In this document: positions 35,262 to 39,117 of the stretch, in pieces
Numbering within the stretch: the stretch's first letter is position 1
How the letters are laid out: each line of letters begins with the position of its first letter
Assembly: GCA_021827985.1 (NCBI GenBank)
Contig: JAKATL010000008.1
Coordinates: 1-64,000 of the forward strand
DNA length: 64,000 nt
Reading direction: 5' to 3'
Source of the DNA: a bacterium
GTDB lineage: Bacteria > Chloroflexota > Dormibacteria > Aeolococcales > Bog-877
Translations under genes and position numbers: made by a program
The notes under the pieces: generated by a model
Told to the model about the DNA's origin: nothing
Databases searched by the model: none
What the model saw: the letters and a program-made list of their open reading frames with translations, nothing else

Positions 35262-35545
35262 TGGAGGGGATCGGGGAGATACTCCCTCGGGTCGTGCGCC
35301 GCATGGGGGTGCAGCGGCAGGTGCGCCTGGCCCGGGCTCAGGCGGCCTTCTCGGAGTCCTGCGGGGAGTACCTGAGAGCCCACGTCCGGGTGGTGGCGGT
35401 GGAGGGTTCCGTGCTGGTGGTGGCCTGCGCCCATCCGGCCATCGCCCACCAGCTGCAGATGGAGTCGGTGGCGCTGCTGGAGGCGGTGAACCGGGCGGCG
35501 GGACCGCCGCTCCTCCGGCGGATGCGCTTTGTCAGCGAGGCGTGA
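35261..35545 (+). CDS. DciA-like (DUF721) helicase-loading factor
   Basis: A 94-residue protein with the DUF721 pattern: RVVRRMGVQRQVRLARAQAAFSESCGEYLRAHVRVVAVEGSVLVVACAHPAIAHQLQMESVALLEAVN. DciA proteins of this family recruit the replicative helicase in bacteria without DnaC/DnaI, and in actinobacteria the gene follows recF, as here. The GTG start overlaps the recF stop (TAGTG). gyrB, which usually comes next, is absent. Its last 14 bases overlap a convergent gene. Confidence 0.88.
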   Translation: MEGIGEILPRVVRRMGVQRQVRLARAQAAFSESCGEYLRAHVRVVAVEGSVLVVACAHPAIAHQLQMESVALLEAVNRAAGPPLLRRMRFVSEA

Positions 35546-36677
35546 GCCCGCCCAATTCCAAGATGCGCAGGGCGGCCCGGTGGGCGGCCCCGGGCGGCAT
35601 CTCCCGGCGGGCGGCGAGCCGGAGCCTCTCCAGAAGGGCGCGGTCCTCCCCCAGCACCTCCGGGAGGATCCTGGCCACCTCCCCGGGAAGGACCGCCGCC
35701 AGGGCCATTCCCCGGCCAACGGCCCAGTCCAGATTGGCCTGCTCCTGGCCCGGCAGGGCGGAGGTGAGGATCATCCCCAGGCCCGCCGAGGCAGCCTCCC
35801 CGACGGCGGTGGGGCCGGCCTTGCCAAGATAAAGGTCGGCGGAGAGGATTAGCGAACCAGGGTCCTCCAGGAACGAGAAGGCGTGCACCGGCAGCCGCCA
35901 CCTCCGCCCGGTCGCCCAGCGGAGAAGCCGCTGGTTCCGACCGCAGAGGAGGGCCACCTGGCAAGGAACTCGGGATTCCTCCACCTCCAGCAGCACCCTC
36001 TCCACCCCGCCGGCACCCTCCGCCCCCCCCGAGACGAGCAGGCAGGGGAGGTCTGGGTCCAGGCCCAGCTCCTGGCGGAGCGCGGGTCGAGGAACAGCCC
36101 GCTCAAGCCCGGGATCCAGGGGCAACCCGGTGGTCTCCACCAGCTCGGGCGGCACCCCCTGACCGAGGCAGGAGGAGGTGGCCTGTTGGGAGGGAGTGAG
36201 GAGGTGGACGCCCCGCGGCGACAGCCACCCGGGGTGAACCAGGGTGAGGTCGGTCACCAGGGTGATCAGGGAGGCACCCACCGCCCGGGCGGCGGCCAGC
36301 GCCCCCGGCCCGAGCAGGGGGTGCAGGTTAACCACCACGCGCGGCCGGGTGCGCCGGGCCCGGCGCACCATCGCCGTCCGCAGGCCGGAGAGGAGGAACC
36401 ACTCCAGCACGGTCCCGGCCGTGGGTTGGGAGAAGGCGGCGAAGAGCGGCCCCCAGGCGGCGGGAGCGCGGCGCACCAGCGGGCCGTATCCTCGCAGCAC
36501 CAGGCTGGCCTGGGGCAGCGCCCCGGAGCGGAGGGGGTCGGCGATCTCCACCCGGAGGCCCGGTCCCGCCTCGGATTGCAATGCCTCTTGGAGGGCTGCG
36601 GCCACCCGCATGTGCCCGCCTCCCGTGGTCGTCGCCCAGAGCTGGACGTCTGCCAGGGGACGGGTTGGCCCGGTGAT
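35532..36677 (-). CDS. MGDG-synthase-like glycosyltransferase, apparent ATC start codon
   Basis: A 381-residue GT-B glycosyltransferase of the diacylglycerol glucosyltransferase / MGDG synthase group. Seen: the N-terminal Gly-loop LWATTTGGGHMRVAAALQ; LITLVTDLTLVHPGWLS; LLTPSQQA; LLVSGGAEGAGG; and the donor-site segment LGKAGPTAVGEAASAGLGMIL...GQEQANLDW. The only ATG lies after the GGGH loop, so it cannot be the start. In frame upstream the order is TAG GGA ATC, with GAGGAGG ending 6 bases before ATC and no ATG, GTG or TTG between. Start is therefore placed at ATC 36677. It probably makes membrane glycolipids. Confidence 0.85.
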   Translation of the reverse strand: MTGPTRPLADVQLWATTTGGGHMRVAAALQEALQSEAGPGLRVEIADPLRSGALPQASLVLRGYGPLVRRAPAAWGPLFAAFSQPTAGTVLEWFLLSGLRTAMVRRARRTRPRVVVNLHPLLGPGALAAARAVGASLITLVTDLTLVHPGWLSPRGVHLLTPSQQATSSCLGQGVPPELVETTGLPLDPGLERAVPRPALRQELGLDPDLPCLLVSGGAEGAGGVERVLLEVEESRVPCQVALLCGRNQRLLRWATGRRWRLPVHAFSFLEDPGSLILSADLYLGKAGPTAVGEAASAGLGMILTSALPGQEQANLDWAVGRGMALAAVLPGEVARILPEVLGEDRALLERLRLAARREMPPGAAHRAALRILELGGLTPR

Positions 36678-36733
36678 TCCCTACCTCCTCGGGTGGATTT
36701 TGGCCGGCGATGCTAAAGTGAGCCCAGGACGCG

Positions 36734-37855
36734 GTGGGAAGGGCCGCGGTCTCTGTGCCAAACATCCGGGGTGTAACAGAAATCGGGGCCTCATGTACCG
36801 CGCCCACGGGGGTGAGCGCTGATCCGGAGTCGGGCGGCGCGGGCCTGAGCTGCCAGGTGGTGGACACCACCGCCGGATTGGCAGGCCTGCGCCGGGTCTG
36901 GGAGCAGATCGCATCTTCTTCCGAGGCTCCGGCCCCCTTCCTAACCTGGGAGTGGCAGGAGAGCTGGTGGGCGGTGTTCTCCGCCAGCTACCGGCCCAGG
37001 ACGCTGGTGTTCTCCCAGCAGGGGCAGGTGGTGGGCATAGCCCCGCTCTGCAGCCACCTGGAGCGCGAGGGAACCCTGCAGTTCGCCGGCGGTGAGGACC
37101 TCTCGGATCAGCTCGGCCTGCTCGCCCTCCCGGGGTTCGAAGAGCAGGTCGCCGAGGCCGTGGTGGGATGGGCCAGGGGATCCGGGGCCATGGAGATGGA
37201 CCTCCACTTCCTCCGCGACTGGGGGTGGGAGTTGCCGGCTCTGGAGCGCGCCGTGGAGCGGCAGGGACTCCGGGGCGAGGTGCATCCGGAGGAGGTCAGC
37301 CCCGCGATCGACCTGCCCACCTCCTTCGATGAGTACCTGTCCCTGCGGCTGGGCAAGAAGGACCGCCACGAGCTGCGCCGGAAGATGCGGCGGCTAGAGC
37401 AGGAGCGTCCGGGATGGCGGCTGGTGGGCCCGGACCAGCTCGGGTTGGAGGCCGCGTTGACTGAGTTCCTCCGCCTCCTCCGCGCCAGCCGTGAGGCCAA
37501 GGACCAGTTCCTCACCCCACCGGTGGAGCGCTTCTTCCGGGAGGTGGCGGAGCGCTTCCAGCGGCGCGGCTGGCTGCGGCTGGCGCTGCTCCAGGAGGGT
37601 GGAGAGCTCGCCGCCGGGACCTTCGGGTTCTGCCTGGGCCGGATCTGGTACCTCTACAACTCGGGGTACGACCCGGCCCAGGCCCACCTCTCCCCCGGGC
37701 TCCTGTGTGTGGCCGAGGGGCTGCGGGGGGCGATCGAGGCGGGCTGCCACCAGGCCGACCTGCTGCGGGGGAATGAGGGCTACAAGTACCGGCTCGGGGC
37801 CCAGGACCAGTTCCTGGTCAATCTCCGGATTTCACTCACCCATGAGGCCAGATGA
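36734..37855 (+). CDS. GNAT-fold protein of the CelD/BcsL (Acetyltransf_6) family
   Basis: A ~373-residue acyltransferase-like protein. Seen: PFLTWEWQESWWAVF; LVFSQQGQVVGIAPLC; and the central LSLRLGKKDRHELRRKMRRLEQ, which parallels the FemAB 'KxRxxLRR' helix. Also LRLALLQEGGELAAGTFGFCLGRIWYLYNSGYDP and DLLRGNEGYKYRLG. Members of this family occur in polysaccharide and cellulose loci; the reaction is generally not established. Start uncertain: GTG 36734 or GTG 36812. It is coupled (ATGA) to the MshA-like glycosyltransferase, which suggests a glycoconjugate pathway. Confidence 0.78.
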   Translation: MGRAAVSVPNIRGVTEIGASCTAPTGVSADPESGGAGLSCQVVDTTAGLAGLRRVWEQIASSSEAPAPFLTWEWQESWWAVFSASYRPRTLVFSQQGQVVGIAPLCSHLEREGTLQFAGGEDLSDQLGLLALPGFEEQVAEAVVGWARGSGAMEMDLHFLRDWGWELPALERAVERQGLRGEVHPEEVSPAIDLPTSFDEYLSLRLGKKDRHELRRKMRRLEQERPGWRLVGPDQLGLEAALTEFLRLLRASREAKDQFLTPPVERFFREVAERFQRRGWLRLALLQEGGELAAGTFGFCLGRIWYLYNSGYDPAQAHLSPGLLCVAEGLRGAIEAGCHQADLLRGNEGYKYRLGAQDQFLVNLRISLTHEAR

Positions 37856-39117
37856 CCCCGCCCGGCGGAGGTGAGCGGACCATCGCCTTCATCTCCCTGC
37901 ACGCCTCGCCGCTGGCGCGGCTGGGGAAGCGCGAGAACGGCGGCCTCAACGTCTACGTGCGGGCGGTCTGCGAGGAGCTGGGGGCGCGTGGGGTTCACAC
38001 CGACGTCTTCGTCCGCCGGAGCGACCCGGACCAGCCGCGGGAGCAGGCCATGGGGCCGCGCAGCCGGGTCATCGCCGTGGATGCCGGTCCGGCTCGGCCG
38101 CTGGCCAAGCACCAGCTTCCCCAGACCCGGGCCGACTATCTGGAGGCGGTGCGCGAGTTCACCAGCACCGCCCGCCGCCGCTACATCGCGGTCCACAGCC
38201 ACTACTGGCTGAGTGGGGAGCCGGGCGCCGCCCTGGCCCGTGACCTGGACATACCCTGGCTGCACACCGCCCACACCCTGGCCGCGGTCAAGGGAGAGGC
38301 CGGGTTCGACAGTGACCTTCCGGAGCGGCTGCTGGAGGAGCGCCGGACCGTGGCCGCAGGCGCCCGGCTGGTGGTGAACACAGCGGGCGAGGCCCATGCC
38401 CTGCGCCACCACTACGCGGCTCGTCCCGGGCAGTGCGTGGTGGCCCCTCCGGGAGTGGACCTGGTGCGCTTCCAGCCGCGCGAGGTGGAGCGGCTGAGGC
38501 GGCGGATGGGGTTGGAGGGCATGAGGGTGATCCTCTTCGCCGGCCGCCTGGAGCCGCTCAAGGGGCCGGACACCCTGGTGGATGCCTTCGCCCTGGTGCG
38601 GGAGGATCCCCGGCTCCGCGACCGAGTCCGCCTGCTCTTCGTGGGCGAGCTGAGCAGCGAGGGCGAGCGGGTCGGCCAGAGGAAGGAGATGCGCCAGCGG
38701 GTGGCGGAGCTGGGGCTGGCCGGAGAGGTGGCCTTCCTCGGAGCCCAGCCACAGGAGCGGCTGGCGCTGCTCTACTGCCTCGCCGACCTGGTGGTGGTCC
38801 CCTCCCACTCCGAGTCCTTCGGCCTGGTGGCGCTGGAGGCCCAGGCGTGCGGCACCCCGGTGGTGGCCGCCGCGGTGGGCGGCCTGAGGGAGGTGGTGGC
38901 GGACGGCCGGACGGGCCGGCTGGTGGAGGGCCGGGACCCTCGGCAGTACGCCGCCGCCATCGCCGAGATCCTGGCCGCGGACCCCGCCTCCCACCGCGAG
39001 ATGCGCCGGGCCGCCCGGCGCCGGGCCGAGCGCTTCACCTGGGAGAGGACCGTCGACATCCTGCTGCCCGAGTACGGGTTGGCCCCCGCCCTGGCCGCCG
39101 CCTGCAGGGAGGCCTGA
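37852..39117 (+). CDS. GT4 family glycosyltransferase, MshA-like
   Basis: A 421-residue GT-B retaining glycosyltransferase. The N-terminus IAFISLHASPLARLGKRENGGLNVYVRAVCEEL closely follows MshA (D-inositol-3-phosphate glycosyltransferase of mycothiol synthesis) and sucrose-phosphate-synthase relatives. Next come HSHYWLSG, the linker strand VILFAGRLEPLKGPDTLV and the donor-binding motif SHSESFGLVALEAQACGTPVVAAAVGGLREVV. Acceptor specificity cannot be read from sequence; no mshB, mshC or mshD is in the window. Start overlaps the preceding gene (ATGA). Confidence 0.85.
   Translation: MTPPGGGERTIAFISLHASPLARLGKRENGGLNVYVRAVCEELGARGVHTDVFVRRSDPDQPREQAMGPRSRVIAVDAGPARPLAKHQLPQTRADYLEAVREFTSTARRRYIAVHSHYWLSGEPGAALARDLDIPWLHTAHTLAAVKGEAGFDSDLPERLLEERRTVAAGARLVVNTAGEAHALRHHYAARPGQCVVAPPGVDLVRFQPREVERLRRRMGLEGMRVILFAGRLEPLKGPDTLVDAFALVREDPRLRDRVRLLFVGELSSEGERVGQRKEMRQRVAELGLAGEVAFLGAQPQERLALLYCLADLVVVPSHSESFGLVALEAQACGTPVVAAAVGGLREVVADGRTGRLVEGRDPRQYAAAIAEILAADPASHREMRRAARRRAERFTWERTVDILLPEYGLAPALAAACREA

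Follow-up and report, generated by a model that had tools for sequence, protein, structure and literature searches.

Our findings indicate that the MGDG-synthase-like gene in the 64,000-nucleotide stretch of DNA analysed here (the window) probably begins translation at an AUC codon. The assignment of AUC at 36677-36675 as its start is well supported by genome comparison. We consider it likely that this AUC is a real, selected start in this genus of Candidatus Dormibacterota, membership of a small set of genes sensitive to initiation factor IF3 being its most likely meaning.

The start site and its conservation

Read from the ATC, the gene has 381 codons and ends with a stop at 35534-35532. The MGDG_synth domain (PF06925) covers residues 22-186 counted from the ATC (E 4e-14, 53.5 bits, cut-off 25) and Glyco_tran_28_C (PF04101) covers residues 213-304 (E 1e-4, 22.7 bits, cut-off 22). 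The product is probably a membrane-glycolipid enzyme, the name MGDG synthase being given by similarity. The features of the locus are listed in Table 1.

Table 1. Positions in the window of the MGDG-synthase-like gene and of the elements around its start.
Feature	Positions	Strand	Remarks
MGDG-synthase-like / GT28-type glycosyltransferase gene	35532..36677	minus	PF06925 + PF04101; orthologues in 39/41 genomes searched
GGA-GGC-GGG-CAC, encoding the GGGH loop	36612..36623	minus	GGGH invariant in the protein alignment; must lie inside the protein
ATC start codon	36675..36677	minus	kept in 7/7 close genomes
In-frame TAG	36681..36683	minus	two codons above the ATC; invariant in seven genomes
Shine-Dalgarno GAGGAGG	36684..36690	minus	6 nt spacer to the ATC; invariant in seven genomes
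TAGCAT, possible -10 element (CACTTTAGCATC)	36710..36715	minus	putative; kept across genera as CACTyTAcCATC

The minus strand from 36690 reads GAGGAGG-TAG-GGA-ATC-ACC-GGG-CCA, in agreement with the preliminary description, which had noted the Shine-Dalgarno sequence 6 nt ahead of the ATC and the want of a standard start (36690-36675). Because of the in-frame TAG, this frame can have no start further upstream; its first ATG, at 36611, lies directly after the GGGH loop. ATG, GTG and TTG are absent from all 23 codons that run from the GGA up to and including the His of GGGH, both in the window genome (G000) and in six congeners (G002-G007). In the 2.83-Mb genome we counted 26 occurrences of GAGGAGG-N6-ATC and 14 of its reversed control; the motif is thus cheap by itself, and it is conservation that raises this site above chance.

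A search of 40 relatives yielded full-length orthologues in seven genomes of the same genus. Six of these, with protein identities of 95, 92, 87, 84, 83 and 83%, have GAGGAGG-TAG-GnA-ATC followed by ACC or AGC (loci L010-L015), and together with the window genome they make up the seven-genome ATC set. From codon 8 after the ATC to GGGH every difference among the seven is synonymous and in the third position, which argues that this N-terminus is translated. The earlier proposal that translation must begin ahead of the ATG is borne out. In the most distant congener (G001, 59% identity) a TTG preceded by AAGGA stands near the same place, and genomes of the sister genus (g2) have a TTG start. On the simplest reading of these alignments, the ATC start would have arisen within the genus and then been retained.

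The leader upstream of the ATC hardly varies among the seven genomes (134 of 147 alignment columns are invariant, compared with 74 of 110 downstream), so the constancy of the three ATC columns counts for little when taken alone; the argument is carried by the absence of a standard start from seven genomes. If TAGCAT is a -10 element, the untranslated leader would be about 25 nt long. We found no Rfam match in the leader, and its predicted fold was no better than those of shuffled sequences. The whole region between the gene and a divergent FemAB/GNAT-type gene (36678-36830) is almost invariant in the seven genomes, exceeding coding sequence in conservation, and two stretches of it, GGGCGcCGTACATGAGGsCCGA and CACTTTAsCATC, are retained in other genera as well. 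It also contains, on the plus strand at 36793-36822, a conserved ATG-TAC-CGC-GCC-CAC-GGG-GGT-GAG-CGC-TGA (MYRAHGGER), a possible leader peptide; this short frame runs across the GTG at 36812 with which the GNAT-type gene probably starts.

Three other accounts of the site have to be weighed. The window comes from a MAG, and the preliminary description had itself named the risk that a base-call or assembly error had made ATC from ATG or GTG. There is virtually no chance of this; it is already refuted by the same ATC in six further congeners at 83-95% protein identity, all of them separate MAGs (matching records FK3.bin63, YP5.bin5, MAS3.bin20, FK3.bin129, DBS1-1.bin61 and LL4.bin70), and the earlier view that the ATC is a start and not an error has held. 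Initiation could instead occur further downstream, at a different near-cognate codon (CTG or ACG) ahead of GGGH or at the ATG that follows this loop. CTG is in general a somewhat stronger start than ATC, and a GGAGG lies 7 nt upstream of the ATG at 36611. Yet upstream of GGGH no near-cognate codon other than ATC stands at one and the same position in all seven genomes: two or three of the seven have CTG at two positions, six and four have ACG at two others, and none of these codons has the conserved Shine-Dalgarno sequence at the proper spacing. Four of the seven genomes have CTG in place of the ATG at 36611, and a start there would remove the conserved ADVQLW...GGGH segment. We regard this account as highly improbable. 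An upstream start in another frame, joined to the gene by programmed frameshifting at GAGGAGG-TAG, seems to us very improbable. Upstream there is indeed an open overlapping frame (ORF 36328-36870, minus strand, GTG start), and a Shine-Dalgarno-like run beside a stop codon recalls the RF2 site, but we recognised no start signal for that frame. A transcript that began some 25 nt before the ATC, as TAGCAT at 36715-36710 would imply were it the -10 element, would carry no upstream frame, and G001 and genus g2 simply use TTG near the same place.

Non-canonical starts in the genome and across the order

The preliminary description had envisaged two independent ATC cases in 64 kb and a lineage in which ATC starts are tolerated, and neither proposal was sustained as a general rule or count. 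It gives no place for the first of the two cases, and scans of the window gave a single other start-like Shine-Dalgarno-ATC pair, at 37882 in a GT4 gene, which we rejected: the codon 10 upstream is ATG, GTG or TTG, a conserved standard start, in 7/7 genus genomes read. The wider scan for such pairs that it had advocated was carried out on part of the genome, 0.84 Mb of G000 (about 30%) compared with 1.31 Mb of G007. Taking AGGAGG, GGAGGT or AAGGAG near gene starts as Shine-Dalgarno sites and deriving expectations from codon use, we found in the 0.84 Mb of G000 that ATC followed these sites 10 times (16.4 expected), ATG 59 times (8.9 expected) and TTG 12 times (3.1 expected). ATC is not enriched and is thus no general start; its use is confined to a few conserved genes, infC and infB chief among them. 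Screens based on conservation only were overwhelmed by ORFs in the wrong frame and by intergenic DNA that is itself conserved. A screen for the boundary of synonymous change in the same two samples did recover infC, infB and the MGDG-like gene, each with a non-canonical start.

The infC gene starts with ATA in 8/8 genomes of the genus, in the context GAGGAT-GCGTCC-ATA-GCG-TTT-CGC or a close variant, and it is preceded by TAGCATCG, which resembles CACTTTAGCATC of the MGDG-like leader. Elsewhere in the order its start is ATA or ATC, and in almost all of 30 phylum-wide loci (L225-L254) it is ATA, ATC or ATT.

More surprising, and to our minds the most interesting result, is the non-canonical start of infB throughout the order. 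In G000 (L217, C47:139135, minus strand) the start reads GCAGGAGGAAGTGCT-ATC-GCG-AAG, and in other genera it reads GGAGGAATCGAC-ATA-GCC-ACG, TGAGGAGGAACGCTG-ATA-GCC-AAG or AAAGGAGGAGTAG-ATC-ATC-GTC. ATC or ATA stands behind a Shine-Dalgarno sequence in every relative with a readable start, in two families of the order (L207-L216, L218-L222, L224), and in several genomes the interval from the upstream stop to the conserved block contains no standard start. Bacterial IF2 commonly begins MAK; in the order's genomes its N-terminus reads IAK or IAT. An ATG found 11 codons upstream of the infB ATC in the window's genus lacks a clear Shine-Dalgarno sequence in most members; it is GTG in G002 and absent from G001. 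The pattern of a Shine-Dalgarno sequence, an Ile codon, Ala and then Lys, Asn or Thr matches most genomes of the order, compared with 2/50 genomes for its reversed control. Where the coordinates of infB are known the matches fall at its start, except for single ones in G011 and G018 and one extra in G023, and the infB loci of G011 and G018 show ATC despite the off-target match. In the class's other families the matches are not at infB where its position is known (G056, G066). Our literature searches, made among open-licence papers, found no report of an infB start at AUA or AUC.

A LivM-like branched-chain amino-acid permease may be a fourth case. In G007 (C36:1243, minus strand, L142) it reads GACGAGGAGGGCGCACC-ATC-ACT, with GAGGAGGGCGCACC-ATC and no standard start nearby, and the ATC, traced by pattern only, is kept in G001, G002, G003, G006 and G007. 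The non-canonical starts would then form a small conserved set: infC, infB, the LivM-like permease and the MGDG-like gene. A separate observation concerns a ClpC-like N-terminus (FERFSERAKEVLTLAQDE) in G000 (C47:240879, minus strand, near L099), which has no standard start within reach; translation may begin at the ACG of GGGGAGATGCCCC-ACG, or the gene may be frameshifted.

A possible role for IF3 in setting expression

IF3 and the initiator tRNA had been singled out beforehand as places where an explanation might be sought. As to the first, infC is present in one copy per genome and itself has the ATA start; as to the second, the initiator tRNA proved ordinary, with a CAU anticodon, a C1-A72 mismatch and three G-C pairs in the anticodon stem. 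No special initiator tRNA was seen among 43 tRNAs, of which 2 read as CAU, one of these being the ordinary initiator, and 13 were unread. A near-perfect Shine-Dalgarno sequence at ideal spacing would place the ribosome on the AUC, where the CAU anticodon would pair with the A and the U and mismatch the third base; because of this mismatch IF3 should destabilise the complex. According to an in-vitro survey, pairs that are weak at the third position are excluded by IF3 (PMC10158994), and discrimination by IF3 against such near-cognate codons is general (PMC5472188, PMC10158994). The strong Shine-Dalgarno sequence would compensate for weak AUC or AUA pairing, while IF3 would hold synthesis of the MGDG-like protein low and inversely tied to the amount of free IF3. 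Initiation at AUC, low output and IF3 control of this gene are thus a proposed chain of events, and the occurrence of AUA in infC and of AUC or AUA in infB in the same organisms makes it most likely that the MGDG-like gene belongs to a small IF3-sensitive set.

The ATC might also be a true start that sets only a low, constant rate, the level of IF3 having no regulatory meaning for this gene. This is rather unlikely in our estimation, if far from negligible. Such a role has precedents, since E. coli pcnB is described as translationally limited by its AUU in work cited in PMC1780047, and the AUU start of S. aureus cvfC1 works with no effect of the medium (PMC13009471). The generality of IF3 discrimination speaks against it, as does the sharing of the feature by infC and infB in the same organisms. 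Returning to IF3 control, we tentatively extend it to a broader scheme, possible though short of probable, in which the order translates infC and infB from AUA or AUC, the genus adds a glycolipid-type glycosyltransferase and a permease, and IF3 governs its own level, its balance with IF2 and a small number of metabolic genes, in effect a regulon written in start codons.

To our knowledge, very few bacterial genes besides infC are established as having an AUC, AUA or AUU start. Since gene finders accept no start other than ATG, GTG and TTG, they miss such genes. The genus-wide ATC case and the order-wide infB case indicate that such genes can be found by genome comparison alone, and they make IF3-dependent start selection beyond infC testable. 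The ATC and ATA starts of the MGDG-like gene and of two initiation factor genes hint that IF3 throttles a small group of genes in this lineage.

Comparison with known systems

Among the closest parallels to the MGDG-like start is infC itself, which begins with ATT in E. coli and ATC in Streptomyces (PMC5472188) and with AUA in S. aureus (PMC13009471). All are near-cognate AUN codons, and at infC they are discriminated by IF3; infC is autoregulated, whereas the MGDG-like gene belongs to metabolism and is not known to be linked with translation. Like sigR of Streptomyces, it is a non-translation gene with a conserved non-canonical start; that of sigR, GTC, is repressed by IF3, and starts of this kind are misplaced by standard gene finders (PMC5472188). 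The role of IF3 at sigR was tested by IF3 overexpression and with infC mutants, while the MGDG-like ATC was identified by sequence comparison. E. coli pcnB (Binns and Masters 2002, as cited in PMC1780047) is likewise an enzyme gene with an AUN start, one that limits its translation according to that citation; it differs in codon and function and in having been shown by experiment. In S. aureus, infC (AUA), ccpN (AUA) and cvfC1 (AUU) have strong extended Shine-Dalgarno sequences and give about 10% of the output of AUG (PMC13009471). The MGDG-like gene shares with ccpN and cvfC1 the pairing of a very strong Shine-Dalgarno sequence with an AUN start, although those two were mapped by ribosome profiling and reporters and our case by comparing genomes. 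The MGDG-like gene probably joins the known group of genes in which a non-canonical start is subject to discrimination by IF3.
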